From Bacteroidota bacterium (lineage in GTDB: Bacteria; Bacteroidota; Bacteroidia; Flavobacteriales_D; Sanyastnellaceae): a stretch of 64,000 nt of DNA. A program made the position numbers and the translations under genes. The notes under the pieces are model-generated. The model had not been told where the DNA came from and did no database searches. It saw only the letters and a program-made list of their open reading frames with translations. The stretch is from the NCBI GenBank assembly GCA_002746975.1, contig NVXE01000012.1, forward strand, positions 3,202-67,201, in the 5' to 3' direction. Positions within the stretch are counted from its first letter, which is position 1; each line of letters begins with the position of its first letter. Below, piece by piece: positions 28,311-56,622 of the stretch.

Positions 28311-29176
28311 CAAGGTATTTTCAGATTATTCATCTTTCCTGAGAACATGGGGAAGCGTTTATCGATTGATGAAGTTACTTTATCTCAAGGAGAGCTATAT
28401 ACAGTTGTGACAAATAAAAAAGCTAAAGGTCGAGCTGGCTCTATCGTAGCAATCATCGAGGGAACTAAGTCAGACGATGTCATAAAGTACTTGCAGAAGA
28501 TTCCTGAGGGTAAACGTAGAAGGGTTGAAGAAATAACTCTAGATATGGCAGGCAGCATGAAGCTTATTGCAAAAACAGCCTTCCCTAAAGCCGTGAGGGT
28601 TATAGATCGTTTTCATGTTCAACAGCTGGCTTCGCAAGCTGTACAGGATATCAGAATAAAACATAGGTGGGAAGCCATTGATCAAGAGAACCAGCAAATT
28701 CAAAGTGATAAAATAGATGGCGTTATATATAAGCTCATGCTCTTTGAGAATGGTGACTCTAGAAAGCAATTACTCACAAGAAGCAGGTTACTTCTATATA
28801 AAGCTTATGACAACTTAACGGAGTCACAAAAAACGAGAGCTGAGATATTATTTAATGAATATCCTGAAATAAAACAAGCGTATGATTTATCCAACAAACT
28901 AAGAGCTATCTACAATAATTGTAAGGATAAAACTCTTGCTATGACAAGACTTATGCACTGGTATAATGATGTAGAAAAATCCGGGTTTAAGAGTTTTAGA
29001 ATCATCACCAATACCATCACTCATAATTACAGAGAAATCTTAAACTACTTTGATAACAGAAGCACAAACGCTTCTGCAGAATCATTTAACGCAAAAATTA
29101 AAGCCTTCAGAATGCAACTTAGGGGTGTGAGAAGTAAAATTTTTTTCTTTTCAGATTAACTCAAATATATGCCTAG
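28311..29176 (+). pseudogene. Truncated, frameshifted ISL3/ISAon1-like transposase remnant
   Basis: The frame from ATG 28347 (open back to a stop at 28308) encodes the DDE core of a Bacteroidota ISL3-family transposase of ISAon1 type: LSIDEVTLSQGELYT, EEITLDMAGSMKLIAKTAFP, VIDRFHVQQL and LNYFDNRSTNASAESFNAKI. Roughly the first 40 residues of the usual protein and the small first frame of such elements are missing. The frame stops at 29157. Reading one base back after the run of seven T at 29140-29146 restores the family's C-terminus FFLFRLTQIYA, ending in TAG at 29174. The sequence at the shift, T TTT TTC, is a slippery heptamer. With the 5' truncation, a decaying copy is the simplest reading. 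No terminal inverted repeats were identified. Confidence 0.85.
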
Positions 29177-29255
29177 TCCCCAACAATTGGTCTTGATCCG
29201 TTTTTTCATTCATCACTCCGCCCTCAAGCAAGCTTGGGCTCGCTCTAAACGAAAA

Positions 29256-29284
29256 AACCGCCGCTGACTTTCGTCAGGGCGGTT
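29256..29284 (-). terminator. Terminator of the tRNA-Pro gene
   Basis: Stem AACCGCC/GGCGGTT encloses an inner stem CTGAC/GTCAG with a four-base loop, followed on the minus strand by six T. It lies just downstream of tRNA-Pro. Confidence 0.8.
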
Positions 29285-29293
29285 ATTCTTTCG

Positions 29294-29368
29294 TCGGGGC
29301 GGCAGGATTCGAACCTGCGATCTCCTGGTCCCAAACCAGGCGCCTTAACCGGGCTGGGCCACGCCCCG
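29294..29368 (-). tRNA. tRNA-Pro (anticodon TGG)
   Basis: The cloverleaf is complete: acceptor stem CGGGGCG/CGCCCCG, anticodon stem-loop CCTGG TTTGGGA CCAGG, T arm GCAGGTTCGAATCCTGC, discriminator A. CCA is not encoded. A TTTG/TATCTTTG promoter lies just upstream. Confidence 0.95.
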
Positions 29369-29384
29369 ATCGTTAATGCGGTCG

Positions 29385-29414
29385 CAAAGATACACAACAA
29401 TTTCCTTTGACAAA
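29385..29414 (-). promoter_or_regulatory. Promoter of tRNA-Pro
   Basis: On the minus strand TTTG (29414-29411) and TATCTTTG (29392-29385) match both consensus elements with an 18-base spacer; the tRNA begins 16 bases further on. Confidence 0.75.
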
Positions 29415-29521
29415 CTGATTATACAATTTATTTTGGACTATTAATAATGATTCAGAAAAGTGATACTGAATACTAGTCACAACAAAATATTTCAATTGTA
29501 GGATTCTCTTGAGCATAAAAA

Positions 29522-29543
29522 AACGCCCGCTGATGCGGGCGTT
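29522..29543 (-). terminator. Terminator of the tRNA-Ser gene
   Basis: A 9-bp perfect stem AACGCCCGC/GCGGGCGTT with a four-base loop is followed by seven T on the minus strand. Confidence 0.85.
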
Positions 29544-29557
29544 AGTGCTTGATAGTG

Positions 29558-29639
29558 CGGAGGAACTGAGATTCGAACTCAGGAGCCGAAACCGGCCACA
29601 AATTAGCAATCTGCTGCATTACCACTCTGCCATTCCTCC
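29558..29639 (-). tRNA. tRNA-Ser (anticodon GCT)
   Basis: Acceptor stem GGAGGAA/TTCCTCC with discriminator G. The anticodon loop TTGCTAA gives GCT; the anticodon stem has two G-T pairs. A long variable arm (GGCCGGTTTCGGCTCC region) confirms the serine class. The T arm is CTGAGTTCGAATCTCAG. Confidence 0.93.
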
Positions 29640-29681
29640 AATAAATCCAAATCAAGTGAAGCACTCCACGAAATTGGACTG

Positions 29682-29689
29682 CAAATCTA
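29682..29689 (-). promoter_or_regulatory. -7 box of tRNA-Ser
   Basis: TAGATTTG on the minus strand matches TAnnTTTG perfectly, about 42 bases upstream of the tRNA. Confidence 0.5.
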
Positions 29690-29831
29690 CACAATTCTGA
29701 TAGATAAAGACGAATACGAAGGGGCAAATTGTTAAATGAATGAAAAAAAGAACTATTAAGATGGTGTTTGGTCTAAAATCAAAATCGAAGTTGTATATTT
29801 ATGCAAGTAAAACGAAACAACTATTTTTAAA

Positions 29832-30227
29832 ATGAAGAATATTTTATTACTCGGAGCGCTCGTGTTATTCGCGTTCACAACCTCAGCTCAAACTGATGCA
29901 CCTGCACCAGATGCTAAAGCAAAAACTGAAAAGTCTTGCTGTTCTAAGTCTGGCAATAAGAAATCTTCTTGCTCTGGTGAGAAAAAATCTTCTTGCACAG
30001 CTGAACAAAAAGCAGCTTGTGAAAAATCAGGAAAATCTTGTTGTTCTAAAACAGCTACAGGTAATGAAAAGTCTTGTACTGCTGAACAAAAAGCTGCTGC
30101 TCAGAAATCTGGAACTTCTTGCTGTTCTCAGTCTGGTGCTAAATCATCTTGCTCTAGCAAAGATTCTGACACTAAAAAGAAGAAGAAAAAGAAGGCAAAG
30201 ACAACTGACACTGGTCTGTCTAACTAA
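29832..30227 (+). CDS. Small exported Cys/Lys/Ser-rich repeat protein
   Basis: A 131-residue protein with a signal peptide (cleavage after TTSAQ). The mature part is built almost only of Lys, Ser, Ala and Cys: short repeats such as KSCCSKSG, KSSCTAEQKAACEKSG, KSCCSKTATG and TSCCSQSG, then an acidic-basic tail with a run of seven Lys. The many CC and C..C pairs fit metal binding or a cross-linked periplasmic protein; no family assignment is possible. Candidate promoter elements are TTTG at 29767 and TATATTTA at 29794. A hairpin with a T run follows at 30249. The gene sits between tRNA genes and is monocistronic. Confidence 0.8.
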   Translation: MKNILLLGALVLFAFTTSAQTDAPAPDAKAKTEKSCCSKSGNKKSSCSGEKKSSCTAEQKAACEKSGKSCCSKTATGNEKSCTAEQKAAAQKSGTSCCSQSGAKSSCSSKDSDTKKKKKKKAKTTDTGLSN

Positions 30228-30248
30228 ACCTCCTTTTCGGGAAATATT

Positions 30249-30277
30249 AAAGAGCTCCTTTTTGGGGCTCTTTTTTT
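30249..30277 (+). terminator. Terminator after the Cys-rich gene
   Basis: Stem AAAGAGC with TCC, loop TTTTT, and GGGGCTCTTT, followed by a T run. Confidence 0.8.
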
Positions 30278-30300
30278 ATACCAAATTTATTAATATTCAG

Positions 30301-30332
30301 TTGTGATAAGCACGAAAGTTTGTGCATCTTTG
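30301..30332 (+). promoter_or_regulatory. Promoter of tRNA-Arg
   Basis: TTG at 30301-30303 and CATCTTTG at 30325-30332, with a 21-base spacer, stand 16 bases before the tRNA. Confidence 0.5.
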
Positions 30333-30348
30333 CACCCTCTTAAAAATT

Positions 30349-30422
30349 GGTCTCATAGCTCAACTGGATAGAGCACCTCCCTTCTAAGGAGGCGGTTCGG
30401 GGTTCGAGTCCCTGTGGGATCA
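30349..30422 (+). tRNA. tRNA-Arg (anticodon TCT)
   Basis: The acceptor stem GGTCTCA/TGGGATC contains G-T pairs. The anticodon arm is CCTCC CTTCTAA GGAGG, giving anticodon TCT. The T arm contains GGTTCGAGTCC, and the discriminator is A. CCA is not encoded. Confidence 0.95.
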
Positions 30423-30561: not shown

Positions 30562-31143
30562 ATGAATATCAAACATGATAAAGAAAAGGTCATAAAAAAG
30601 GGTATAGATTTATTTTGGTGTAATGGATATTCAAATCTAGGTGTAGATAAAATATGCAAGGCTACCGGAATGACAAAGGGTGCATTCTATAATGCATTTA
30701 AAAGCAAGGAGAATTTTCTTCTTTCGTGTATTGAGGCTTATGGGAATATGAATATGAATTATCTGACTGAACAGTTGAGTGATCAGAATAAAAGAGCGAT
30801 AGACAAAATCTTGAACATGTATGTAATCATGCTAGAAAATCAACCAAGTTTAAATTTCACTGGTTGCTTAACAAATAACATGATGTCCGAAATTAGTTCT
30901 GTGAATGAACTTGTAGGGAATGCTACAGCTCGAGCTTTTGATAACCTGCTTGATGTGATAGAGCCTATGGTTATAAAAGCGCAGTTAGAGGGAGATATTT
31001 CACCTTCAGTAGATTCTAAAACAGTTACAGAATTAATCCACTCAACTTTTTTTGGTGTATTAACAAGAGCTAAGGCTACAAGGGATAATAAAAAGTCAAT
31101 TTCCGCAATGACATTGCTAATTAAATCATTAAAAACAATTTAA
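30562..31143 (+). CDS. TetR/AcrR-family repressor
   Basis: A 193-residue TetR-family regulator. The helix-turn-helix is at about 28-50 (VDKICKATGMTKGAFYNAFKSKENF); the C-terminal ligand domain is of the AcrR/TetR_C_6-like kind. It is the first gene of a three-gene unit with an SRPBCC protein (1-base gap) and a DUF1330 protein. The palindrome ACCGTTCGGT in its own promoter suggests autoregulation. The ATG is four bases after the -7 box. Confidence 0.92.
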   Translation: MNIKHDKEKVIKKGIDLFWCNGYSNLGVDKICKATGMTKGAFYNAFKSKENFLLSCIEAYGNMNMNYLTEQLSDQNKRAIDKILNMYVIMLENQPSLNFTGCLTNNMMSEISSVNELVGNATARAFDNLLDVIEPMVIKAQLEGDISPSVDSKTVTELIHSTFFGVLTRAKATRDNKKSISAMTLLIKSLKTI

Positions 31144-31144
31144 G

Positions 31145-31648
31145 ATGACCATTATATCAAGAGAGATAGAAATTAACGCTTCTAAAGAAGATGTTTGGAA
31201 GGCGATAGCTAAGTTTGGTGACATATGTCACGGTAGTCCAGGAGTTTTAAAATCTCATGTCACCTCTAAGCAACAAGAAGGTGTGGGAGCTACACGACAC
31301 TGTGATTTCGCACAAATGGGAGCAAGTGCAGAAGAGAGAATTACTGCTTGGGAAGAGGGGGAGTCCTTATCAATTGAAGTTTATGAGTTTAAGAAACTAC
31401 CTGGGATTAAAACAATGGTGGCGGATTTTTCAGTCCGAACAGATAATGAGAAAACTATTTTGCGAGCTGACCTCAGCTACAATATGAAAAACAGTCTGTT
31501 TGATATGATGAATTTTTTAATGATGAAGCAGATGAATACAAAAAACTGGAATGCCGTATTAGCAGGTCATAAGAAATATATTGAAACAGGTGAAAGAGTT
31601 GTTGAGACAACCTTACTGGAACTAGACAAAGTGATCACATTAAAATAA
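31145..31648 (+). CDS. SRPBCC-family (START-like) protein
   Basis: A 167-residue polyketide-cyclase/START-like protein with a hydrophobic ligand pocket. The N-terminus follows the family pattern (ISREIEINASKEDVWKAIAKFGD), and the C-terminal long helix (WNAVLAGHKKYIE) closes the pocket. Families of this kind bind lipids or aromatic compounds, or act as cyclases; the ligand is not known. Its place between a TetR repressor and a DUF1330 protein suggests it binds or processes the inducer. Confidence 0.85.
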   Translation: MTIISREIEINASKEDVWKAIAKFGDICHGSPGVLKSHVTSKQQEGVGATRHCDFAQMGASAEERITAWEEGESLSIEVYEFKKLPGIKTMVADFSVRTDNEKTILRADLSYNMKNSLFDMMNFLMMKQMNTKNWNAVLAGHKKYIETGERVVETTLLELDKVITLK

Positions 31649-31661
31649 AAAACTCAATAAC

Positions 31662-31967
31662 ATGTCAGAAGAGAAAGCGATACTAGTAATAAATGCTATA
31701 GTCAACAAAGAGAATATGGCCGAGGTTCCGGTGTATTTGGAAAACATCATGCCTGTCTTTGCTAAAAATGGAGGCAAACCAGTCGGTAGATATAAAACTG
31801 TTCAACAATTAGAAGGTATTGATAGTCCTGAGATGATAGCAATATTTGAGTTCGAGAGTGTTGATGTTATCAATACAATGATTAATGGAGCAGATTTTAC
31901 AAATCTATCAGACTTAAGAGCTAGAGTATTCGATAAACTAAATATGGTGATCTGTACTGAATTATAA
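31662..31967 (+). CDS. DUF1330 protein
   Basis: A 101-residue ferredoxin-like alpha/beta-barrel protein of DUF1330, distantly related to antibiotic-biosynthesis monooxygenases. Typical strands AILVINAIVNKENMAEVPVY and MIAIFEFESVDVINTMI are visible. Last gene of the TetR cassette, 13 bases after the SRPBCC gene. Enzymatic role unknown. Confidence 0.85.
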   Translation: MSEEKAILVINAIVNKENMAEVPVYLENIMPVFAKNGGKPVGRYKTVQQLEGIDSPEMIAIFEFESVDVINTMINGADFTNLSDLRARVFDKLNMVICTEL

Positions 31968-32466: not shown

Positions 32467-32501
32467 GTTAGTTAGTATTAACTAACATTGTTATATATTT
32501 G
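32467..32501 (+). promoter_or_regulatory. Operator and -7 box of the second TetR operon
   Basis: A perfect inverted repeat with 8-base arms GTTAGTTA and TAACTAAC and a 4-base spacer (32467-32486) is followed by TATATTTG at 32494-32501. The -33 region lies inside the palindrome. The ATG at 32506 is four bases after the -7 box. Confidence 0.7.
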
Positions 32502-32505
32502 CATT

Positions 32506-33090
32506 ATGGATTTTACAAAAAGACAAATTGAGATTATCGGAGCAGCTACCGAATTGATAGGTGAGAAGGGAGTTCAGAACCTAACCACAAAAAATCTTGC
32601 GTCTAAAATGAGCTTCTCTGAGCCTGCTCTTTATAGACATTTTAAGGGTAAAACAGAGATACTTAAATCAGTACTTGTTTTTTTTAAAGAATTTTTAGGC
32701 AAGAAGATAAATGAAATTTTCAATTTAAAAATTACGGGTATTGAGAAAATTGAAAAGATGATAGAATTTCAGTTTAATCATTTCTATAATAATCCTGCCA
32801 TAGTAATGGTGATTTTCTCTGAAACTAGTTTTCAATACGATACCGTTCTTTCTAAAGTGGTGTCAGAAATAATTTCTAAGAAGCGTGAAAATGTTGTTCG
32901 TATTATAGAATCAGGCCAAACAGATGGCTCTATACGTAAAGATATCCCTGCCGAGCAAATTGCAACGATTGTGATGGGAAGTATGAGACTTACTATCCTA
33001 GAATGGAGGCTTTCTAATTTCAAGTTCAATTTAATTGAACGAGGTGAAGAATTAATAGGTACAGTTCGAACTATGATAAGGAAAAAATGA
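32506..33090 (+). CDS. TetR-family repressor of the envelope export operon
   Basis: A 194-residue TetR-family regulator. The helix-turn-helix (LTTKNLASKMSFSEPALYRH) is at about 23-43. I start at 32506 rather than an upstream TTG at 32488, because the latter lies inside the promoter. Its stop overlaps the start of the DUF2141 gene as ATGA. It heads the six-gene unit to 38394, and the palindrome GTTAGTTA..TAACTAAC on its promoter predicts autoregulation. Confidence 0.92.
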   Translation: MDFTKRQIEIIGAATELIGEKGVQNLTTKNLASKMSFSEPALYRHFKGKTEILKSVLVFFKEFLGKKINEIFNLKITGIEKIEKMIEFQFNHFYNNPAIVMVIFSETSFQYDTVLSKVVSEIISKKRENVVRIIESGQTDGSIRKDIPAEQIATIVMGSMRLTILEWRLSNFKFNLIERGEELIGTVRTMIRKK

Positions 33091-33527
33091 AAGTCTTATT
33101 AATCTTGTACACATTAATTTTTTCATCTTCAGTATTAGTATATGATACTGTGAATGTTAGTTCTCTAACGATAAAAGTAAATAAATTACAGAATTCTACA
33201 GGTGTAGTTCAATTCACTATTTACAACATCGATGGATCAATCCCAGATGAACATTACAAGAATTTTTATAAGCAATTAAACGCAGAAATTCTGAATAACA
33301 CCTCGACAATAACTTTTGAAGATTTGCCGCATGGAGAATATGCAATAAATATTCTGCACGATGAGGATGAGGATGGAGTTATAAAAAAGGGTTGGTTTTT
33401 GCCTATTGAAGGTATAGGTTTCTCAAATTTCAGTTCGTTAAATCCACTGAATCGCCCAAGTTTTAAGAAGTCAAAATTTAACTTAAATGCCGATAAAGCT
33501 ATTGAAGTTAAAATAATATATATGTAA
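33087..33527 (+). CDS. DUF2141 exported protein
   Basis: A 146-residue DUF2141 protein with a short signal peptide. The family pattern of a beta-sandwich with ITFEDLPHGEYAINILHDEDEDG is clear. The acidic DEDEDG loop could bind calcium. DUF2141 proteins are frequent beside MMPL/RND pumps or TonB receptors in Bacteroidota, but no function is proven. Translationally coupled to the TetR gene. Confidence 0.85.
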   Translation: MKVLLILYTLIFSSSVLVYDTVNVSSLTIKVNKLQNSTGVVQFTIYNIDGSIPDEHYKNFYKQLNAEILNNTSTITFEDLPHGEYAINILHDEDEDGVIKKGWFLPIEGIGFSNFSSLNPLNRPSFKKSKFNLNADKAIEVKIIYM

Positions 33528-33559
33528 TAGGTTTTTAGTAAACGAACACACTCATAACT

Positions 33560-35863
33560 ATGAAAAAAATAACGAATTTGGTGCTAAATAACAGTAAGCT
33601 AATAATATCCTTACTGGTCCTTATTACCCTTGCTAGTCTTTATAGTATTAAAACTAATTTCGCCCTTGAGACGAATCTAGATACTTACATGCCTAAGTCT
33701 CATCCTGCATTTATCTACAGTGATAAAGCGGAAGAAATGTTTGATATACGAGACGCGATTATGATTGCTATTGAAGACGAAAATGGCATCTACAACGAAT
33801 CTACATTTAAGAAAATTAAAGCCCTTACTAAGGAGGTGCAGGCTCTCGAAGTAGTTGGGGATAAGGATGATGTCCTTTCTCTTTATACTGCAGACAATAT
33901 TAAAGGAGACGATGGAGGGTTAGAGATAGAGGCGTTTTTTAAAAGAATACCTAAAACTGTGGAGAGGTTTAAGGAAATTGAAGCGGGTGTGGTTTCTAAT
34001 GAGATGGTTCATAAGAGAATAGTTTCTGAAGATGGAAAGGCGACACTTATTTTCACTAAGATTAAGGAAAATAGCTTTACTGAGGAGTTATATAACCAAA
34101 TTCTGGAAATAGCTCATAAATACGAGGGTGATGGAGTGAACATATATGTAGCGGGCCAACCTATAGTTGAGGGAACTATGGCTATTCTGATGCCACAGGA
34201 TATGAAGAAGATGTTCCCTATAGTACTACTTCTCATAGTAGTCGTTCTTTTTCTAGTTCTGCGAAGTGTTCAGGCGACTATCATTTCTATGGTGGTGGTG
34301 ATATTTTCATCGATTTGGACTTTCGGGCTAATGCTCGCAATGGGAATTCCGGTTTACGCTCCGAGTTCACTTATTCCTGTAATGCTGATCGCCATAGGTG
34401 TGGCGGACGCCATTCATATGTTTAGTCATTTACAACTTCAGATTAAGAATCACAGCGATTGGTCGAAAAAGAAACTAATCGAAAATATGACGTCCGAGAT
34501 GTTCATGCCAGTTATGATCACATCGGTTACGACATCTGTAGGGTTCTTGTCTTTATTGACTTCGGATATTTACCCTATAAAATACTTCGCGGCATTCACC
34601 GCATTCGGAGTTATGGCGGCGATGTTCCTTTCACTAGTTCTGATTCCAGCAGCTGTTAACGTGCTAGGCTTGCCTAAAGCCCCTGCCGCTCGTAAAGAGG
34701 ATGAGGATCATGATATATTCACAATTCGTGCAAGTAAATTCGCTGTTGCCATGGTTCGCCATAAAAAGTGGGTGATAAGTGCTACGGTTTTGGTATTGAT
34801 ATTCTTCGGAGTGGGTATGTCTAAGGTTTGGATTAATTCAAGCTTCTTAGCAAGATTCCCTGACAAGAATCCTTTAGTTCAAACCGATGCTTTTGTAAAC
34901 GCACATTTCCTCGGAACGACTACCGTAAATGTAATCCTCGAAGCAACAGAGATAGATGCATTTAAAAATCCGGAGGTACTTAAGCTTATGGATAAGCTAG
35001 CTATCGACGTAGAAGCAGATAACGAAGCTGTAGGAGGTGGTCTTTCGGTTGTGGATTTCATAAAACGAATGAATAAAGTTCTGAACGAGGATAGACAGGA
35101 TTTCTACACAATACCCCAGGACAGAGATCTAATCGCTCAATATTTCCTTCTTTATGAAATGAGTGGTGGGTCAGATAGGCTTTGGGATGTTGTAAGTGAC
35201 GATTTCAAAACTGCAAATGTGCAATTCCAGCTAAAAGGTGATAATTCTAAGGGCTTGAACGGCACTATAGACTCGATAGAGGAATTCAAAGATGATTTTG
35301 CGGCGCTAGGAGTGGACTTGAATTTTGCGGGGAGTGGTTATAAGGTTTTGGTCTTTAATGACCTCATTTTAATAGGCCAAATAAAATCTCTACTCTACTC
35401 TTTCATCATCGTTATCCTTCTTCTTTCATTGATGTTCAAGAGTTTTAAAATCGGACTTATCGGAACGATTCCAGTGTTTATTACGACAATTATTTCATTC
35501 GGAATACTTGGATGGCTAAATATTCCACTAGAAACTACGACTGCTTTGATTTCGAGTATCGCAATAGGAATAGGAATAGATTATGCGGTCCATTTTATAG
35601 ACAGATATAAAATAAATGCACTCCTGACAAACGATAAGGAAATAACCATGAAGAAAACTATGGCTCATTCAGGTCGCGCAATTTCTTTCAATGCGATAGT
35701 TGTGATTCTTGGATTCCTCGTGTTAACGTTCTCGGCATTCAAGCCTAACGTTGCCCTCGGTGCAATCGTTTCTTTAAACATGCTTACGAGCTTCATAGGT
35801 ACTGTGACAGTGATGTTTATAGTCCTAGTTGTAGGGAATCTTTATATAAAAAGTAACAAATAA
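33560..35863 (+). CDS. MMPL/HAE3-type RND transporter
   Basis: A 767-residue RND-superfamily protein of the MMPL/HAE3 type. It has the two-fold layout: helix 1 (about 13-30), periplasmic domain, five helices (about 220-370), helix 7 (about 400-415), second periplasmic domain and five helices (about 610-765). Charged residues in helix 4 (GVADAIHMFSHL) and in helix 10 (GIGIDYAVHFIDR) fit the proton-relay pattern. HAE3 pumps move hydrophobic lipids such as hopanoids or glycolipids to the outer membrane. Together with the LolA-like protein and the barrel downstream it resembles a lipid-export route. Confidence 0.9.
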   Translation: MKKITNLVLNNSKLIISLLVLITLASLYSIKTNFALETNLDTYMPKSHPAFIYSDKAEEMFDIRDAIMIAIEDENGIYNESTFKKIKALTKEVQALEVVGDKDDVLSLYTADNIKGDDGGLEIEAFFKRIPKTVERFKEIEAGVVSNEMVHKRIVSEDGKATLIFTKIKENSFTEELYNQILEIAHKYEGDGVNIYVAGQPIVEGTMAILMPQDMKKMFPIVLLLIVVVLFLVLRSVQATIISMVVVIFSSIWTFGLMLAMGIPVYAPSSLIPVMLIAIGVADAIHMFSHLQLQIKNHSDWSKKKLIENMTSEMFMPVMITSVTTSVGFLSLLTSDIYPIKYFAAFTAFGVMAAMFLSLVLIPAAVNVLGLPKAPAARKEDEDHDIFTIRASKFAVAMVRHKKWVISATVLVLIFFGVGMSKVWINSSFLARFPDKNPLVQTDAFVNAHFLGTTTVNVILEATEIDAFKNPEVLKLMDKLAIDVEADNEAVGGGLSVVDFIKRMNKVLNEDRQDFYTIPQDRDLIAQYFLLYEMSGGSDRLWDVVSDDFKTANVQFQLKGDNSKGLNGTIDSIEEFKDDFAALGVDLNFAGSGYKVLVFNDLILIGQIKSLLYSFIIVILLLSLMFKSFKIGLIGTIPVFITTIISFGILGWLNIPLETTTALISSIAIGIGIDYAVHFIDRYKINALLTNDKEITMKKTMAHSGRAISFNAIVVILGFLVLTFSAFKPNVALGAIVSLNMLTSFIGTVTVMFIVLVVGNLYIKSNK

Positions 35864-35873
35864 ATTAAGTATT

Positions 35874-36686
35874 ATGAAAATTTCAAATATAATATTAAGG
35901 GCAAGTTTTTACATGAGTGTAGGTATTCTATTGCTAGGAGTTTCAAGCCCAAACCTTTTCGCTCAAGACTATCAAGACACATCTGATGCGCGAGAAATTG
36001 CGTACAAAGTTTATAATCGCAAAGCACCATCTAATGGTGAGAGCGATATGACGATGACGCTCATAAATAAAAAGGGAGGTGAGAGAGTTAGGTCACTCCA
36101 TCAGTTTTTTATCGACCTAGGGGAAGAAGAAAGACAAATCATGTTCTTCACAGCCCCAGCCGATGTGAAAAACACCTCATTTATGAACTTTTCTTATGAA
36201 GAAGCAGATCGTGACGATGATCAGTGGTTATATCTACCCGCCCTCAAAAAAGTGAAGCGCATCTCATCTTCAAGCAAGGATAACGAGTTTATGGGGTCTG
36301 ACTTTACATACGAGGATATGGAAAAACGGTCTCCCGAGCGAGATGTTCAAACCTTACTAAGGTCGGAGAACTTCAATGGTGAGGAGGTATGGGTTATCGA
36401 GGCTACACCTATAGAAGAAGAGCAGTACACGAAGAGGGTGGTTTGGGTTTCAAAAGAAAAAAGCTTGCCTCTAAAAATGGACTTTTACGACGAAGATGGG
36501 GAGCTTTTAAAAACCCTTACTATTGAAAAAACTGCCCAAATCAAAGGCTACTGGATTATCACGAACCAGGTGATGCGTAACGTCCAGAAAAACCACAAAA
36601 CGGTCATTTCATTAGATAATGTACAAGTTGAAAACGGTACAGATGAGAGTAAGTTCACTCAGCGTGAAATGGAGAGAGGACTTTAA
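35874..36686 (+). CDS. LolA-like outer membrane lipoprotein-sorting protein
   Basis: A 270-residue periplasmic protein with a signal peptide (cleavage after LFAQD). It belongs to the LolA/TP_0789-like family (COG2834 type): RDDDQWLYLPALKKVKRISSSSKDNEFMGSDFTYEDM is the family landmark (about 117-155, quoted here in shortened sense). Such proteins bind lipids in a half-barrel and are usually paired with RND pumps. It follows the pump after 10 bases, so it may be the periplasmic carrier of the pumped lipid. Confidence 0.9.
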   Translation: MKISNIILRASFYMSVGILLLGVSSPNLFAQDYQDTSDAREIAYKVYNRKAPSNGESDMTMTLINKKGGERVRSLHQFFIDLGEEERQIMFFTAPADVKNTSFMNFSYEEADRDDDQWLYLPALKKVKRISSSSKDNEFMGSDFTYEDMEKRSPERDVQTLLRSENFNGEEVWVIEATPIEEEQYTKRVVWVSKEKSLPLKMDFYDEDGELLKTLTIEKTAQIKGYWIITNQVMRNVQKNHKTVISLDNVQVENGTDESKFTQREMERGL

Positions 36687-36696
36687 TTTTTTTTAA

Positions 36697-37947
36697 ATGA
36701 AAAATCATAACAAAATATTATTTGCTTTAGCTGTATTGTTATCCCAAACACTCACAACGCAAATTAACGCTCAAGAAGAAGCGGTAGAGATAAACGGTTT
36801 TGCAAGAAATTATACGGGATTACTCTTCGATAATGGTGATTACAGTATTCTTCAAAATACACTAGATTTAAGTTTAAAACATAGGCGTAAAAATATCGGA
36901 TTCTTCGCAAATCCTTTTATATACAAGTATTCGTACCAAGACGATTACTTCGATTTCAGAGAGCTATATGTCGATATCTATACGGAAAAACTTGATTTAA
37001 GAATAGGAAAGCAACAAATCGTATGGGGACAAGCAGATGGAGTATTTATCACGGATATTGTGTCTCCATTAAATTTAACGGAGTTTTTACTTTGGGATTT
37101 TAACGAAATACGAATGGGGGTTAACGCCGTAAAGGCGATTTATTATCCACATCCTGACCACGATATTGAGGTTGTATGGATTCCTTCGTTTACACCTTCA
37201 CTTTTACCGGGTGAGGGATCTATTTGGCGTCCTTCAATGTCATTCCCTATTGTTCCTACATTTGATTATTCAAATGTTTTGGTTAATACAAATATTAAAA
37301 ACAGTGAGATTTTTGTAAGGTACTCATTAAGCAAATCATTTTTAGACCTTCAGCTTATAGGAGCTTCAACTTGGGACGACATTGCGAGCAATTATGTTCA
37401 AATGCAAGTCGACTCTACGATGAATCTTACGGGTATTATTGTAAGGCCAGAGCATTCTCGTCTTTTACTTGGTGGCATGAACTTTAGTGCGTCTTTAGGC
37501 GACTTCGTTCTAAGGGGAGAAGCTGCATATTATGATGGTAAGAGGTTTTCGACACTCGACCCATACGCAGATGGGGCTTTAGTAGAAAAGGGCTACTTGA
37601 ACTATGTTGTAGGTTTAGATAGGACGTTAGGAGATTGGAGGTTGAGCACTCAATTTATTCAAAAAGTCATACTCGATTACGATGACCTAATTATAAATGA
37701 TGAAGTGGATAACACTATGACGTTTATGGTAAACAAGACCTTCTTTAGAGACCAACTTCGGCTTGAAATGTTTTCATATGTAGGCCTTAATAATCAAGAC
37801 GCCCTATTAAGGCTTCGTGCATTCTACTTTCCTTATGATGGAATAGGTATCGAGCTAGGTACAAATTTATTTCTTGGAGATCATGGAACTTTTGGTCAAT
37901 ACAGTAATAATAACATGGTCTATTCAAGACTCAAATACAGTTTCTAG
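36697..37947 (+). CDS. DUF1302-like outer membrane beta-barrel
   Basis: A 416-residue exported protein with a signal peptide (cleavage near INAQE). The remainder is a run of amphipathic beta strands ending in an aromatic C-terminus (SRLKYSF), as in outer membrane barrels. The stretch LRIGKQQIVWGQADG is typical for DUF1302-like proteins that accompany RND pumps. It is 10 bases after the LolA-like gene. Role inferred: outer membrane exit or acceptor for the pumped compound. Confidence 0.85.
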   Translation: MKNHNKILFALAVLLSQTLTTQINAQEEAVEINGFARNYTGLLFDNGDYSILQNTLDLSLKHRRKNIGFFANPFIYKYSYQDDYFDFRELYVDIYTEKLDLRIGKQQIVWGQADGVFITDIVSPLNLTEFLLWDFNEIRMGVNAVKAIYYPHPDHDIEVVWIPSFTPSLLPGEGSIWRPSMSFPIVPTFDYSNVLVNTNIKNSEIFVRYSLSKSFLDLQLIGASTWDDIASNYVQMQVDSTMNLTGIIVRPEHSRLLLGGMNFSASLGDFVLRGEAAYYDGKRFSTLDPYADGALVEKGYLNYVVGLDRTLGDWRLSTQFIQKVILDYDDLIINDEVDNTMTFMVNKTFFRDQLRLEMFSYVGLNNQDALLRLRAFYFPYDGIGIELGTNLFLGDHGTFGQYSNNNMVYSRLKYSF

Positions 37948-37971
37948 TCATATTCCAAATAATTATAAATC

Positions 37972-38394
37972 ATGAAATTTTCAATTAATACAGTTTTAGT
38001 GCTACTAATGTCGTTTACAGCATTTTCTTGCAACTCTCAAACATCGTCTAAGCAAACAACTATAGAAAACCTGGTCCTTAATGGTACTGACAGGTGGAAG
38101 GCAAACGAAGCGACGATTACGGGAATACATAATATGTCTGATATGCTCGAAAATTTTACAGATACGGAAAACCTCAACTCATACAAGAAATTATCGAATA
38201 ACCTTCAGAAGGAGTTTTATTTAATATTCCAAAACTGTACTATGTCAGGAGAATCGCATAATCAGCTTCACCATTATTTACACCCATTAAAAGCCCTTAT
38301 AGAGTCAGTTGAGTCAAATGAGTTAAAAGAAGCTATGATAAATTTCGAAAAAGTAAAATATCACTTGAATGAATTTGATGAATTTTTCAAATAA
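37972..38394 (+). CDS. Small lipoprotein of unknown family
   Basis: A 140-residue lipoprotein with lipobox SFTAFSC (Cys near 20). The mature part is mostly helical and contains a conserved-looking C..S.E.H..LHHYLHPL segment (about 83-103) with Cys and five His residues, a possible metal or haem site. No family was recognised. It lies 24 bases after the barrel gene and is the last gene of the export unit. Confidence 0.75.
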   Translation: MKFSINTVLVLLMSFTAFSCNSQTSSKQTTIENLVLNGTDRWKANEATITGIHNMSDMLENFTDTENLNSYKKLSNNLQKEFYLIFQNCTMSGESHNQLHHYLHPLKALIESVESNELKEAMINFEKVKYHLNEFDEFFK

Positions 38395-39098: not shown

Positions 39099-40685
39099 AT
39101 GGATAAAATTAATATGTCTCAACCAAAAGACTGGTTAGAAGGATTGAAGGAGAATTTCTCATCTGACTTGAGTTCAGGATTTGTTGTTTTTTTATTGGCT
39201 CTTCCTTTAAGTTTAGGAATTGCACAAGCATCCGGAATACCTCCTCTTATGGGAATTATTTCGGCTATTGTAGGTGGTGTGCTAGTAACATTTATCACAG
39301 GGTGTAAGCTTGCGATTAAAGGACCTGCTGCTGGGTTGATAGTTATTGTGGCTGGAGCAGTTTCAGAGTTTGGAGGAGATGAAATAGGATGGAAATTAGC
39401 TGCTGGGGCAATGGTAGCTGCTGGAATAGTCCAAATATTATTCGGCTTAATTAAATTAGGTAAATATGTGGATTTCTTCCCCTTGTCAGCAATACATGGT
39501 ATGTTAGCTGCCATAGGATTGATAATAATTGCGAAGCAAGTTCCTGTACTACTTAATACTTCCCCAGAATTAAGTAAAGGAATGGGGCCTTTTGAGCTGT
39601 TTTCTGAAATTCCTACATTCATAGCAAACCTCGATCCAAGTGCAACATTTATAGGAATTGTAAGTTTACTTTTGATGATTTTTTGGCCTAAAATCAAGAA
39701 TGGATTTCTATCTAAGATACCTGCTCCTCTTGTAGTCTTGTTATTTGCCATACCAGCAGGTATGTTATTCGAGTTTTCTACTATTAAACCTAGTTACACG
39801 CTTGTTAAGGTAGGTAATCTCATAGATTCGATAGCAATTAATGCTGACTTTTCGGGAGTATCTCATCTTGGGATTTTCGTTAAATATGTTGTTATGTTTG
39901 CTTTAGTGGGATCCTTAGAGAGCCTTCTGACAGTAAAGGCTATAGATCTTCTAGATCCTTTTAAAAGAAAATCAGATCCAAATAAAGATTTGATTGCAGT
40001 AGGAATAGGAAATACTCTTGTTGCCTTCTTAGGGGGATACCCTATGATATCTGAGGTAGCAAGAAGTTCGGCTAACATTAAAAATGGAGCGAAAACAAGA
40101 TGGGCAAACTTTTTTCACGGTTCATTCTTGTTAATTTTCGTACTTGTAGCCTACCCAGTTCTTGAAATGATTCCTAACGCAGCTTTAGCGGCGATGCTTA
40201 TATCGGTAGGGATAAATTTGGCACATCCGAAAGAGTTTGTACATATGTATGAAATCGGCAAAGACCAGTTGGCCATATTTTTAACTACGATTGTTTTTAC
40301 GTTAGTAGAAGACCTGTTGATAGGAATAGCCGCTGGAATTTTACTTAAGATAGTAATGCATCTCATACGAGGAGTTAAAATGAAGTCCTTGTTTAAGTCT
40401 TCAGTAGTTGTAACAAATGACAACGATAGTTATGTGGTTGAAATTAATGACTCTGCGGTGTTCTCTAATTATTTGGGCTTTAAAAAATATATAGACCAAA
40501 TTCCTGAAGGAAAGAAAATCACAGTATTACTATCTGAATCTGTACTACTTATGGATCATTCATTTATTGATGATTTATACAGATTGCAATACGACTATGA
40601 ACTAGCAAATGGAGTGTTTTTAATAGAAGGGTTCCAGGAAATGAAACCCATTTCGTCTCACAAACTATCTGTACATATTCGCTAA
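39099..40685 (+). CDS. SulP-family anion transporter next to DabAB
   Basis: A 528-residue SulP permease. The N-terminal signature DLSSGFVVFLLALPLSLGIAQASG-like region (helix 1-2, about 20-48) and the transport core (to about 430) are followed by a short STAS domain (about 435-528). SulP members carry sulfate or bicarbonate. The stop is two bases before the dabA start, so it is co-transcribed with an inorganic-carbon system; bicarbonate is the most likely substrate. Its STAS domain is shorter than in the second SulP of the window (54886), and the two are diverged paralogues. Confidence 0.9.
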   Translation: MDKINMSQPKDWLEGLKENFSSDLSSGFVVFLLALPLSLGIAQASGIPPLMGIISAIVGGVLVTFITGCKLAIKGPAAGLIVIVAGAVSEFGGDEIGWKLAAGAMVAAGIVQILFGLIKLGKYVDFFPLSAIHGMLAAIGLIIIAKQVPVLLNTSPELSKGMGPFELFSEIPTFIANLDPSATFIGIVSLLLMIFWPKIKNGFLSKIPAPLVVLLFAIPAGMLFEFSTIKPSYTLVKVGNLIDSIAINADFSGVSHLGIFVKYVVMFALVGSLESLLTVKAIDLLDPFKRKSDPNKDLIAVGIGNTLVAFLGGYPMISEVARSSANIKNGAKTRWANFFHGSFLLIFVLVAYPVLEMIPNAALAAMLISVGINLAHPKEFVHMYEIGKDQLAIFLTTIVFTLVEDLLIGIAAGILLKIVMHLIRGVKMKSLFKSSVVVTNDNDSYVVEINDSAVFSNYLGFKKYIDQIPEGKKITVLLSESVLLMDHSFIDDLYRLQYDYELANGVFLIEGFQEMKPISSHKLSVHIR

Positions 40686-40687
40686 TT

Positions 40688-43228
40688 ATGAATAATATGA
40701 GTGATAAAAACTTTATTGAACAGGATGTCTTAAAGAAATTAAGGCACTACTTACCTGCACAAGCCACCTTAAAAGACTTTGTTCACCATAATTCTTTGCA
40801 TTCCTTTCAAAATAAAGAATTCTTTGATGGAATATTTAGTGCTTCTAAAATCTTCGGTTTCCACGTTACGTTTAATGTATACAACTACCGAAAGTTGCAT
40901 AAACAAGGAAGGATTAAGAAAAACATCTTAGACAGAACGATAATTAACTCTAAGGGTGCACACAATTTGGATTCTTACCTAGATAAGATGCTCCATAAAG
41001 AGTATGACCATAAGTATAACCCTCGTGTGGGGCAATTAAGAAAGCACTGGAAGAGTAGATATAAAATTGACTTAGATAATTTAGTTCAACCTATTTTATT
41101 TAGAATACTAGCTAGTTTTCTGGATCAAGGAATTGCTCTTTGGCATTTTCCTTTTGAAGAGAAAGGACTGTTAGGGGCAATTAAGATTCTAGAGGAAAAT
41201 AGCTTTAGTAGTTTCTTTAATTCTAAAAGAACGAAAGAGTTACTGCACTCCGAGGATCTTTCTATTGAAAAGCTGCTAGAGATTCTTGTTGGTGATTCTA
41301 AGTATTTTGAAAACTATCTATTCGACCAACAATATGGTCATAAAGGATGGAGTGGTTTAATGAGTGTTATTGAAGAAAATCCGGATACTATTTTCTATAA
41401 GAAAAATGTTCAATTTAAAGATTTAATAATCCTAGAATTGCTTTTAGAAATAGACTCTCTGGATAAGGTTCTAGGCAAATCATGGGACCCACTAGCAAAG
41501 GGGTTATCTATAAAACCTGTTGATTATTTATCTGAAGTTAAGCATGGAGAATTACAAGAAATCCTTCAATTGTGGCAGGAAGCTTTTGAGTGGGATTATT
41601 ACGATGATGTATTAGCTGGTGTGGGTTTTTTAGCTAAAACTCGTAAGAAAGAAAGCCCCAAAAATGTAAGCTTCCAAGCAATGTTTTGTGTCGATGATAG
41701 AGAGTGTTCGTATAGAAGGCATTTAGAAAGCATTGATAATAAATGCGTTACCCTAGGCGCTCCCGGATTTTATGGCGCTGCAATATATTTCAAGCCTTTC
41801 GGAGGAAAATTTTACGATAAAAACTGCCCTGTAGCTGTAACTCCTACTCATATAATTAAGGAGGTTGAAATTCAACAGGTAAGGAAGCATGAGATTTATC
41901 ATCATAATAAGACTCATTCACTACTGCAAGGAGCATTGTCCTCATTTTCTATAGGCTTATTAGCCGGGTTAAAAATGACAATTGACTTAGCAAGGCCAAA
42001 AATGCAAGCAGATATTTCTAATGCATTTGCCCATATGGATGTCAATGGTAAACTTTTAATTGAAAATAAGGGTAATAACGAGATAGAAAATGGGCTGCCC
42101 GTTGGATATCAAGTGCATGAAATGGTAGATGTTGTTGAGTCATTGTTAGTAGGCATTGGGCTAACAGATGATTTTGCAGATATTGTTTACGTAGTTGCTC
42201 ACGGAAGCAGTAGCGCAAACAACCCTCATCATGGAGCTCATGATTGTGGAGCTTGTAGTGGTAGGCCAGGAGCTGTTAATGCTAGGGTTTTCTCATATAT
42301 GGCAAATCATTCAACAGTACGAGAAAGATTAATCGAACGCGGAGTTATTATTCCTGAAAAAACTCAGTTCATAGGAGCTATGCATGATACAGCGAGTGAT
42401 GACATAGCATTTTATGACGAGGATATTTTATATAAAGAAAACCTTAAAGCTCATAAAATTAATGTCCAAAATTTTGAATCGGCTTTAGATATAAATGCAA
42501 AGGAAAGAGCTCGTCGCTTCGCTTCGATTAACATTAAAAAAGACTTAAAAAAGATAAGGAATGAGATTAAGAAGAGGTCTGTATCCTACTTTGAACCTAG
42601 ACCAGAGCTGGGGCACGGAACTAACGCTCTTTGTCATATTGGATCAAGGGAAAAAATTAAGGGCTTGTTTCTAGATAGAAGGGCTTTTTTACAATCTTAT
42701 AATTGGGAGAAAGATCCAGAAGGAGAGGTTTTGGCTCAAGTTTTAGGACCTCTACCTGGTGTCTGTGGTGGGATAAACTTAGAATATTATTTCTCTAGAA
42801 TGGACATGGAGAAAATGGGTGCCGGCACGAAATTACCTCATAATGTAACAGGTCTAATAGGTGTTACAAATAGTAGTGATGGAGATATCAGAACAGGTCT
42901 GCCACTTCAGATGATAGAAAATCACGATCCAGTGAGGTTGCTTATGATGATTGAACATAAACCAGAGGTTATTTTAAAAATAATAAAGGCCTCGAAGAGT
43001 ATTTATGATTGGTTCGATAAAGGTTGGATTCATCTAATATCAATCTCACCAGAAGACAATAATTTATACCTATTTGAGAAAGGAGAGTTTAAGCTTTACG
43101 TTCCCGAAAACGAGGTGTTAAAGTCAGATGATATTAACGTCATCATTGAAGAAGGGGTAGAAATGAAGACGAATCATATTTTAGACGCAACACTGGAAAA
43201 TATTCCAACTATTGTTTATCCAAATTAA
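40688..43228 (+). CDS. dabA: Inorganic carbon transporter subunit DabA (DUF2309)
   Basis: An 846-residue DabA protein (formerly DUF2309), the carbonic-anhydrase-like half of the DAB CO2-trapping complex. The predicted zinc site is intact: C334 and D336 in FCVDDRECSYRR, and H505 and C520 in VAHGSSSANNPHHGAHDCGA. The 15-residue distance between His and the second Cys is that of characterised DabA. The protein lacks membrane helices and must work with DabB. In the known system, vectorial hydration of CO2 to bicarbonate is driven by a cation gradient through DabB. It lies 2 bases after SulP and 5 before dabB. Confidence 0.95.
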   Translation: MNNMSDKNFIEQDVLKKLRHYLPAQATLKDFVHHNSLHSFQNKEFFDGIFSASKIFGFHVTFNVYNYRKLHKQGRIKKNILDRTIINSKGAHNLDSYLDKMLHKEYDHKYNPRVGQLRKHWKSRYKIDLDNLVQPILFRILASFLDQGIALWHFPFEEKGLLGAIKILEENSFSSFFNSKRTKELLHSEDLSIEKLLEILVGDSKYFENYLFDQQYGHKGWSGLMSVIEENPDTIFYKKNVQFKDLIILELLLEIDSLDKVLGKSWDPLAKGLSIKPVDYLSEVKHGELQEILQLWQEAFEWDYYDDVLAGVGFLAKTRKKESPKNVSFQAMFCVDDRECSYRRHLESIDNKCVTLGAPGFYGAAIYFKPFGGKFYDKNCPVAVTPTHIIKEVEIQQVRKHEIYHHNKTHSLLQGALSSFSIGLLAGLKMTIDLARPKMQADISNAFAHMDVNGKLLIENKGNNEIENGLPVGYQVHEMVDVVESLLVGIGLTDDFADIVYVVAHGSSSANNPHHGAHDCGACSGRPGAVNARVFSYMANHSTVRERLIERGVIIPEKTQFIGAMHDTASDDIAFYDEDILYKENLKAHKINVQNFESALDINAKERARRFASINIKKDLKKIRNEIKKRSVSYFEPRPELGHGTNALCHIGSREKIKGLFLDRRAFLQSYNWEKDPEGEVLAQVLGPLPGVCGGINLEYYFSRMDMEKMGAGTKLPHNVTGLIGVTNSSDGDIRTGLPLQMIENHDPVRLLMMIEHKPEVILKIIKASKSIYDWFDKGWIHLISISPEDNNLYLFEKGEFKLYVPENEVLKSDDINVIIEEGVEMKTNHILDATLENIPTIVYPN

Positions 43229-43233
43229 TTAAA

Positions 43234-45102
43234 ATGAGCTATTTATTATATGCGTTACTCCTTTCCCCTCTATTTGCATTAGTAGTAGGGTTCGGATTGT
43301 CTAATGAGAATGAAAAAGGAATCTTTTATGTGTCTTTTCTCAGCGCCATAGTTAACTACGGAGTATTATTAATAGTATCTTTTCTATGGTTTAAAGGAGG
43401 TTTTGAACCTATTTTTATTCAAGGTCCTGTTTTATTTCATACAGGACATGCTGATTTTGCTATAAGTTTTTTAATTGATGGTTACAGTTTATCGTATCTT
43501 TTTACGGCTACTTTTTTAACTGCCATAATAATCGTCTTTAGTAAGAATTATATTCATAGAGAAAAGGGGTATAAGAGGTTTTTTAACAACATCAAATTTT
43601 TCTACTTAGGACTAGTTTTGGTACTAATGTCAGGAAACTTAGAAACGTTATTTCTAGGATGGGAGATTTTAGGTGTGACTTCATTCTTTTTGATAGGGTT
43701 TTATAGAGATAGATATTTGCCAGTTAAAAATGCTCTTAAAGTTGTATCTCTTTATAGAGTAGCAGATATTTCAATTTTACTAGGAATATGGTTGAGTCAT
43801 CACTATTTCGGATATAGCATTAACTTCAATGATATAGAGGGTATTTATAGTGAACATCATCATCTATTAAGTGATGATATTTATTTCTACTTAATCCCTG
43901 GTTTGTTTTTACTTGCTGCTATGGTTAAGTCAGCTCAGTTTCCATTTTCCTCATGGTTACCTAGAGCTATGGAAGGACCTACAACTTCGAGTTCGATATT
44001 TTATGGGTCACTATCAGCACATATTGGAGTATTCTTATTGATTCGTATTGCTCCATTGTGGGAAGGTAATTATTGGTTTCATTTCATAATTGGCGGGGTG
44101 GGGCTTATGACTGTGATTGTATCCTCATCAATTGCAAAAGTCCAATCTTCAATTAAAACGCAGATTGCTTATTCATCTTTAGCTCAGATAGGCTTAATGT
44201 TTATTGAAGTATCGTTTGGCCTCTATGGATTAGCGATTCTACACTTTGTAGGTAATGCAATGTTGCGTACTCATCAATTATTGATTTCGCCTTCTATTTT
44301 GAGCTATAAAATTCACGATCAGTTTTTTAATTTTAAAAAGCCACAAAAGCAAGGCTATAAAACATTTTATGAAAAGTTAAAATTAACGGTATACGTGCTG
44401 AGTATTAAGGAGTTCAACCTGGATACGTTTATGTATAACTATCTATGGAACCCGCTCAAGAAGATGGGAAAGCTTATTGATAGGCTTTCGTTTCGAACAA
44501 CTATGACAACGTTTGGTACTGTATTTTTAATCGGCTTGTATGGTGTTTATTTCAAAGACTTAGTTCCGGATTTGATTAAACATTACGTTTCTGAGATGTT
44601 CGCTCTCTTTAGCTTAATATTAATTCTTAAAGCTTTTGTAAACAGAGAGTCAGCGATAATTGCTTGGTCTTATTTAATAATAAGCCAGTTGCTTCTGTCT
44701 CTTTGTTTCGGTTACAATGAAGTATTCGACTTTTCACAGGTTCATATATTTTTAAGTGGAATTCTTGTGTCGGGAATTGTGGGATTACTTATTCTTAATA
44801 ATTTAAAAAATAAAGGCCAAACCTTAGATTTAAATGACTTTCATGGATTAGTTCACGATTATCCTAAACACGCGTTCATTTTCGTGATAGCATGCTTAGG
44901 GATTTCGGGGTTTCCTATAACACCTACATTTATTGGTGAGGATTTAATGTTAGGACACGTCCACGAAAATCAATTTATTTTATTGGCGTTTTTAACAGTT
45001 AATCTAATTCTAGACGGATTGGTAGTTTATAGAATTTATGCTCGTTTGTTTCTGGGTTTACATAAGAGTGACTTACATGATTTTGCATATAGGTCATCAT
45101 AA
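43234..45102 (+). CDS. dabB: DabB, NuoL-like proton/sodium-conducting subunit
   Basis: A 622-residue membrane protein of the proton-conducting transporter (NuoL/MrpA) superfamily. The key acidic residue in LGWEILGVTSFFLIGFYRDR (about 144-163) and the Lys in AAMVKSAQFPFSSWLPRAM are present. It is the membrane subunit that couples cation flow to DabA. A polar insert of about 60 residues follows helix block one (about 355-415). It is longer than the ~550 residues of DabB from chemoautotrophs. Confidence 0.92.
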   Translation: MSYLLYALLLSPLFALVVGFGLSNENEKGIFYVSFLSAIVNYGVLLIVSFLWFKGGFEPIFIQGPVLFHTGHADFAISFLIDGYSLSYLFTATFLTAIIIVFSKNYIHREKGYKRFFNNIKFFYLGLVLVLMSGNLETLFLGWEILGVTSFFLIGFYRDRYLPVKNALKVVSLYRVADISILLGIWLSHHYFGYSINFNDIEGIYSEHHHLLSDDIYFYLIPGLFLLAAMVKSAQFPFSSWLPRAMEGPTTSSSIFYGSLSAHIGVFLLIRIAPLWEGNYWFHFIIGGVGLMTVIVSSSIAKVQSSIKTQIAYSSLAQIGLMFIEVSFGLYGLAILHFVGNAMLRTHQLLISPSILSYKIHDQFFNFKKPQKQGYKTFYEKLKLTVYVLSIKEFNLDTFMYNYLWNPLKKMGKLIDRLSFRTTMTTFGTVFLIGLYGVYFKDLVPDLIKHYVSEMFALFSLILILKAFVNRESAIIAWSYLIISQLLLSLCFGYNEVFDFSQVHIFLSGILVSGIVGLLILNNLKNKGQTLDLNDFHGLVHDYPKHAFIFVIACLGISGFPITPTFIGEDLMLGHVHENQFILLAFLTVNLILDGLVVYRIYARLFLGLHKSDLHDFAYRSS

Positions 45103-56610: not shown

Positions 56611-56622
56611 AACGAAAAAAAA

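Follow-up and report, generated by a model that had tools for sequence, protein, structure and literature searches.

A TetR-linked pump, carrier and barrel cassette of Bacteroidota and other phyla that resembles an inner-to-outer-membrane route and may export an amphiphile

Outside Proteobacteria, little is known of how lipids and other hydrophobic molecules travel across the periplasm. The gene cassette described here lies at positions 32506–38394 of a 64,000-nucleotide stretch of DNA from a Bacteroidota bacterium (contig NVXE01000012.1, assembly GCA_002746975.1; the whole stretch is called the window below), and among studied systems it is closest to AmeABCD and to the iron-induced TetR-ABC-ABC-MMPL-LolA operons known from Prevotella and Porphyromonas, in which ABC stands for ATP-binding cassette transporter. 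AmeABCD of Castellaniella defragrans is reported to consist of a DUF1302 protein, a DUF1329 protein, a COG4447 protein and an HAE3 pump, and its deletion to lower monoterpene tolerance and raise Nile Red accumulation (PMC6394551). Operons described like that of Prevotella nigrescens are reported to be strongly induced by low iron, up to 136-fold in P. gingivalis (PG1175–PG1181) and up to 223-fold in P. intermedia, and it is suggested there that they serve to acquire iron from siderophores (PMC10434189); PG1178–PG1180 are also reported to rise in an hmuS mutant (PMC13227078). In P. putida, PP_0765 (DUF1302) and PP_0766 (DUF1329) are described as needed for growth on Tween 20 and as correlating with PP_2018/PP_2019 (PMC10866462). 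One carrier-barrel pair links monoterpene efflux, growth on Tween and iron-induced operons of oral Bacteroidota. Our literature search found no paper naming MMPL, LolA and DUF1302 together, which is no evidence of absence since the Ame paper describes such a set as HAE3, and none linking pumps of the resistance-nodulation-division (RND) type with PF17131.

A reading of the window made from its letters alone (the sequence-only reading) had proposed an operon of TetR, DUF2141, HAE3/MMPL pump, LolA-like, DUF1302-like and lipoprotein genes. All six open reading frames (ORFs) were confirmed where it had placed them, tightly packed on the + strand, with the start of the DUF2141 ORF overlapping the end of tetR by 4 bp. 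Ten window proteins were scanned with Pfam, and the six operon ORFs also with NCBIfam; the genome itself is a 2.39 Mb assembly, 95% complete. The features of the locus are as follows.

32467–32486, no strand assigned: predicted TetR operator GTTAGTTAGTATTAACTAAC, with 8-bp perfect arms and a 4-nt centre
32494–32501, + strand: possible -7 promoter element TATATTTG, picked by eye against the Bacteroidetes -7 consensus TAnnTTTG
32506–33090, + strand: TetR-family regulator (PF00440 TetR_N, E 3.9e-12)
33087–33527, + strand: DUF2141 protein, accessory and probably periplasmic (PF09912, E 1.4e-24; N-terminal hydrophobic segment by eye)
33560–35863, + strand: HAE3-like RND/MMPL pump (PF03176, E 4.1e-42)
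35874–36686, + strand: LolA_like periplasmic carrier of the PF17131/DUF1329 type (PF17131, E 3.7e-64; DUF1329, E 4.8e-21)
36697–37947, + strand: DUF1302-family outer-membrane beta-barrel with a C-terminal Phe (PF06980, E 1.6e-9)
37972–38394, + strand: small lipoprotein, accessory, a predicted four-helix bundle with a conserved C-x-M-x-G-x-x-H-x-x-L-H

Like AmeABCD, the locus encodes a DUF1302 barrel, a periplasmic protein of the LolA superfamily/DUF1329 and a pump together, the pump being HAE3 in AmeABCD and HAE3-like here. It differs in that the order is reversed (pump, carrier, barrel) and in that it adds a TetR with a conserved operator-like site. No counterpart of AmeC appeared among the six operon ORFs, none of which matched a COG4447-type family in Pfam or NCBIfam (the search for COG4447 did not extend to the cargo of the relatives); because of this, and of the opposite order, we did not file the window as a member of the Ame cassettes. 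The Prevotella nigrescens locus, which by Pfam reads TetR-ABC-ABC-MMPL-LolA-DUF1302, shares with the window a leading TetR and then MMPL, LolA_like and DUF1302 genes in identical order, at 42% identity for the carrier, 30% for the barrel and 23% for the pump. It differs by two ABC transporters between TetR and pump, of which there are none at 32506–38394. Its TetR has no BLAST match to that of the window at E 1 and matches only by profile (5.6e-11), and the best operator-like site in its region carries 7 mismatches. Kinship of the window to the P. gingivalis and P. intermedia operons, which were compared by description only, is something we infer by way of P. nigrescens. The kind of system is already known, and what is new is a multi-phylum subfamily with its own operator-like site and changing cargo.

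To place the locus among its relatives, two peptide patterns were run against 84,980 named species genomes, giving 282 relatives; the 80 best of these were carried forward. The resulting set of 81 loci (the window plus these 80) was selected by the pump and not by neighbouring genes, and order was counted only where the flanking DNA sufficed (56 loci for TetR, 70 for the carrier, 46 for the barrel and 35 for all four). A LolA_like carrier lay downstream of the pump in 70/70 loci and a DUF1302 barrel in 46/46, TetR lay upstream of the pump in 54/56, and the whole core of TetR, pump, carrier and barrel was present in 34 of the 35 loci with enough DNA on both sides. The recurrence of this four-gene core among relatives in several phyla makes its order more than chance, and pump, LolA-type carrier and barrel look like a conserved unit resembling an inner-to-outer-membrane route, as had been proposed from the letters alone. 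Among the 51 of 81 loci with all four genes full-length, pairwise distances of the pump correlated with those of the carrier (r 0.91), the barrel (r 0.82) and TetR (r 0.51), and none of 999 permutations reached any of these three values.

The two remaining genes of the window are optional, though recurrent, accessories. DUF2141 occurred in 5/81 loci, every one in the window's own clade of seven, and the lipoprotein family in 6/81, four of them in that clade and two in Bacteroidales, where the lipoprotein gene is placed before the barrel. Set against the refuting condition named with the sequence-only reading (an order that is not conserved, with lipoprotein and DUF2141 genes varying freely), the outcome is split: the order of the core is conserved, and these two genes do vary.

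A predicted switch accompanies the core. Most loci carry, upstream of tetR, a palindrome close to GTTAGTGAATATTAACTAAC; when 20-bp sites with at most 4 mismatches were counted in the 66 of 81 loci that could be used, 54 loci had one upstream of tetR, 46 had one between tetR and the pump, and 40 had both. Of 119 such sites in 976 kb, 113 fell at those two places, or directly before the pump where tetR was unusable, and 0/1320 shuffled regions reached 4 mismatches. Among 796 regions upstream of genes other than this tetR in these loci, 67 carried a site; 50 of them belonged to the pump, and the remaining 17 to others, for example genes lying between tetR and the pump, an additional tetR, or neighbours with the intergenic space in common. 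The consensus was picked by eye from the tested regions, so that these tests are not fully independent; a concentration of sites at two positions across phyla is nevertheless hard to explain in another way. The control by TetR that the sequence-only reading had suggested gains good support, at the level of sequence, from this site: TetR, which would bind the palindrome, is predicted to control the cassette and is probably self-regulated.

The window holds one site (32467–32486), which is the sole exact match to GTTAGT-N8-ACTAAC in the 2.39 Mb genome. A wider TetR regulon was considered and rejected: at one mismatch or fewer the motif occurred in 5 places, against 11 for the reversed control, and only the operon site was exact. 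In the absence of a genome-wide excess at one mismatch, TetR looks like a local regulator. In several loci the right half-site runs into TTTG, as if overlapping a Bacteroidetes -7 box; in the window it runs into ATTG, and TATATTTG lies 8 bases further on. Sigma-70-type promoters were no commoner than in shuffles (22 vs 21.5) in a scan that does not cover Bacteroidetes promoters.

Each component of the core was then considered by family and fold. The best NCBIfam match of the pump was TIGR00921 (HAE3), at 208 bits and below the cut-off of 351.9, while its MMPL domain scored well above cut-off. Asp674-Tyr675 is kept in 81/81 loci and Asp283 in 73/81, with Tyr in the other 8, at positions that fit the proton relay of MMPL pumps. 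The conserved Asp-Tyr pair and the MMPL family are shared with HpnN and MmpL3. Membership of the BstA sterol transporters was tried and rejected (NF045600, 10.3 bits vs a cut-off of 1400). The carrier scored 216 bits against PF17131, above the curated cut-off of 30, and its solved relatives 9tp6 (2.1e-58), 3bk5 and 4z48 are of the LolA-like type. For the barrel, PF06980 reached 37.8 bits, above the cut-off of 23.2, and a C-terminal Phe was present in 55/56 barrels. A model built from 56 sequences, with a predicted local distance difference test score of 88.9 and 20 strand segments, resembled the major outer membrane protein of C. jejuni (Z 23.2), OprD-family channels (Z about 22–23) and the alginate exporter AlgE (Z 21.9); a barrel fold shared by a model shows no function. 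A search of solved-structure sequences with the barrel profile gave no convincing match.

The same carrier family is found beside other engines. Of 20 PF17131 regions fetched, 3 had no LolA match to our profile; among the other 17, FtsX-like permeases stood alongside in 12 (L171–L177, L179, L180 and L182–L184, with one or two permeases each), an HAE3-like pump in 2 and neither in 3, so one carrier type appears to serve two engines, an RND pump or LolCDE/MacB-type permeases. The 12 Bacteroidota cassettes of LolA_like, FtsX and FtsX, with or without an ABC gene, share the carrier family with the window, and 6 of them have TetR adjacent or next to the carrier and 3 have a weak barrel match after it; they differ in that LolCDE/MacB-type permeases replace the RND pump, with an ABC ATPase in 9/12 (checked by Pfam for L174 only). 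In Sulfitobacter dubius (NZ_CP085145), a type I polyketide synthase precedes an MMPL-LolA_like pair, a hint that pairs of this sort can handle polyketide-like products.

Genes carried along with the core offer a clue to its cargo. Besides DUF2147 (16 loci) and a cupin (15), the recurrent genes of the 81 loci included a clear PLA1 in 3 and, in 19, an outer-membrane protein family that we designated c4. Pfam PLA1 matches at E ≤1 were found in 7/17 c4 members (best 7.4e-6), and HHSNG and later Asn residues were invariant in 17/17; for these two reasons we read c4 as a probable divergent outer-membrane phospholipase A, which would bring outer-membrane phospholipase-A-like genes to 22/81 loci. The first c4 representative scanned had no Pfam match at E 0.1. 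In loci L096 and L118 a TetR and an OEP-family gene (OEP assigned from a family member) stand divergently beside the cassette, with an HlyD-like gene recognized by eye, and in L169 a similar TetR and OEP-family gene lie near it with another gene between.

The reading we prefer, tentatively and with somewhat less than even confidence, is that the cassette encodes an inducible, TetR-repressed system which exports an amphiphile active on membranes, perhaps an acyl lipid. In this scheme the proton gradient would drive the HAE3-like pump, which would draw the amphiphile out of the inner membrane; the LolA-like protein would shield it in the periplasm; and the DUF1302 barrel would receive it and either insert it into the outer membrane or release it through that membrane. 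TetR would repress its own promoter at the 20-bp palindrome and come off the DNA once the substrate, or a lipid related to it, accumulates. An acyl lipid (a lysophospholipid or a fatty-acid-like molecule) or a compound mimicking one would be the most likely cargo, which we favour because of the phospholipase-like cargo in relatives together with the LolA-type carrier. Such a route would be compact and strictly conserved and would come with a predicted switch of its own, and whatever releases TetR from its operator would point to the substrate class.

Several observations weigh against this interpretation. The need for DUF1302 and DUF1329 proteins in P. putida reported for growth on Tween 20 could mean uptake (PMC10866462), and related operons of Prevotella and Porphyromonas are reported to respond to iron limitation (PMC10434189). 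Nor does a porin-like barrel point specifically to lipid. The c4 match is weak: 10/17 members had no PLA1 match even at E 1, hhalign of c4 with three PLA1 relatives was not significant (E 0.039, probability 1.3), and a c4 profile search of solved-structure sequences gave nothing. Among the 7 loci in the window's clade, two of them short, there was no phospholipase-like gene, so that the acyl-lipid clue comes from relatives only. As to the conserved unit, the pump's nearest neighbour was also that of the carrier in only 26/51 loci, of the barrel in 23/51 and of TetR in 20/51, shared species history also yields distance correlations, and TetR distances follow the pump less well than the others do. 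Of the lipid export proposed in the sequence-only reading, the route-like unit stands, and the lipid is a cargo we can suggest.

The cassette is patchily distributed. Beside its own genome, 0/59 relatives searched held a close pump orthologue, 13 of them genomes of the same genus (61–97% complete), and the best match was 28% identical. Orthologues 52–57% identical were present in 8 genomes besides its own among 395 of the phylum, all from one family of another class. By submitters' titles, and bins can be wrong, the best 80 relatives were mostly Bacteroidota, with others from Neomarinimicrobiota, Chlorobiota, Melioribacteraceae, Calditrichota, Delongbacteria, KSB1, Cloacimonadota, WOR-3 and Spirochaetia. 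A quick pump tree, whose root is unsure as the outgroups sit on very long branches, placed the window in a clade of 7 (Shimodaira-Hasegawa-like approximate likelihood-ratio support 100) with Crocinitomicaceae, Cyclobacteriaceae, other Flavobacteriales and Tenacibaculum piscium, nested in a mixed-phylum group. Horizontal transfer of the cassette is likely. Mis-binning of the contig is disfavoured, guaA on the same contig being 91% identical to the best same-genus copy.

By analogy, the Ame precedent would favour a hydrophobic toxin as cargo and the Prevotella operons would point to iron. A route for the efflux of foreign hydrophobic compounds (terpenes, solvents, bile-like or antimicrobial amphiphiles), with a TetR that senses the toxin, is possible if on the unlikely side: the three protein families are those of AmeA, AmeB and AmeD, for which tolerance and dye-efflux phenotypes are reported (PMC6394551), the distribution is patchy, with no close orthologue in any of the 13 other same-genus genomes (61–97% complete), and the divergent TetR and OEP-family genes of L096 and L118 would suit it. 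An endogenous substrate would better suit the strict cross-phylum conservation of core and operator-like site and the phospholipase-like genes that relatives carry, and no degradation enzyme was found in a Pfam scan confined to ten window proteins. Iron- or heme-linked trafficking (of a siderophore, porphyrin or heme), in which the conserved Cys, Met and His of the lipoprotein would bind metal or heme, we consider rather improbable. The P. nigrescens gene order, the reported low-iron induction of operons of that kind (PMC10434189) and the resemblance of the lipoprotein model to cytochrome b562 speak for it; the divergence of pump, TetR and operator-like site from P. nigrescens described above, and the missing ABC pair, speak against it, as does a b562 match that lies within the unspecific helical-bundle range.

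Uptake, with the barrel admitting a lipidic nutrient and the carrier delivering it inward, seems quite improbable. The P. putida genes needed for growth on Tween 20 and their correlation with PP_2018/PP_2019 offer a precedent (PMC10866462). Against it, no lipid catabolic enzyme was present among the ten window proteins scanned with Pfam, and to our knowledge HAE3/MMPL pumps studied to date export. Hopanoid or carotenoid export, the comparison and check raised by the sequence-only reading, is largely refuted for this genome and in our estimate close to negligible. HAE3 pumps do include HpnN, and among the cassette-holding f28 genomes PF00494 was present in 8/8 and PF13243 over cut-off in 2/8; the window pump, in contrast, scores 75.3 bits against TIGR03480 (HpnN), far below the cut-off of 751.85, and 38.4 against NF052374 (cut-off 1100), and its own 95%-complete genome had no PF13243 match (at E 0.001) and no PF00494 match in a search of these two marker domains. 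Returning to export of an endogenous amphiphile, a more specific form of it strikes us as doubtful: an RND-powered lipid trafficking machine of a Bacteroidota/Calditrichota/Neomarinimicrobiota group, in which TetR would sense damaged or excess membrane lipid and many lineages would carry their own outer-membrane phospholipase, a functional counterpart of the proteobacterial Mla/OmpLA systems built from other parts.

The lipoprotein ORF (37972–38394) matched no Pfam or NCBIfam family above cut-off. The Cys/His cluster noticed in it earlier is real: C89-x-M91-x-G93-x-x-H96-x-x-L99-H100 is identical in 6 operon-linked lipoproteins, that of the window included. Its model, in which residues 1–30 are effectively unmodelled, is a four-helix bundle that looks like cytochrome b562 (Foldseek E 0.18 at best; VIA-align Z 11.8 over 94 aligned residues, root-mean-square deviation 2.2), a likeness no greater than unspecific helical bundles can show. 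Members of the family are found outside the cassette as well (L044, L037 and L041). At L044:1480–2616 and L041:491–3279 they lie away from the pump and near a TetR of the cassette's kind, accompanied by DUF302-like and OsmC-like genes (by eye) or by cytochrome c genes; in L044 the promoter of that TetR holds a palindrome similar to the operator, with 5 mismatches. In L037 and L041 the relatives stand alongside a membrane protein of family c9.

Around the cassette, three tRNA genes lie 2–3 kb away and a transposase-like ORF (by eye) about 3 kb away; together they span 28347–30422, less than about 4 kb upstream, and this region is a plausible integration site. Just upstream, a separate small cluster (30562–31967) encodes a second TetR, a Polyketide_cyc2 protein and a DUF1330 protein; the best NCBIfam resemblance of this TetR, below cut-off, is AcuR. 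An ordinary-looking LolA is encoded on the - strand at 60937–61581 with a weak PF17131 match (5.4e-4); the cassette carrier differs from it, and the cell thus has a second LolA. A SulP-like transporter followed by DabA-like and NADH-dehydrogenase-like proteins occupies 39099–45102, and a second SulP-like protein paired with a carbonic-anhydrase-like one lies at 54886–57243, all named by presumed likeness; the two regions are possibly two bicarbonate systems.

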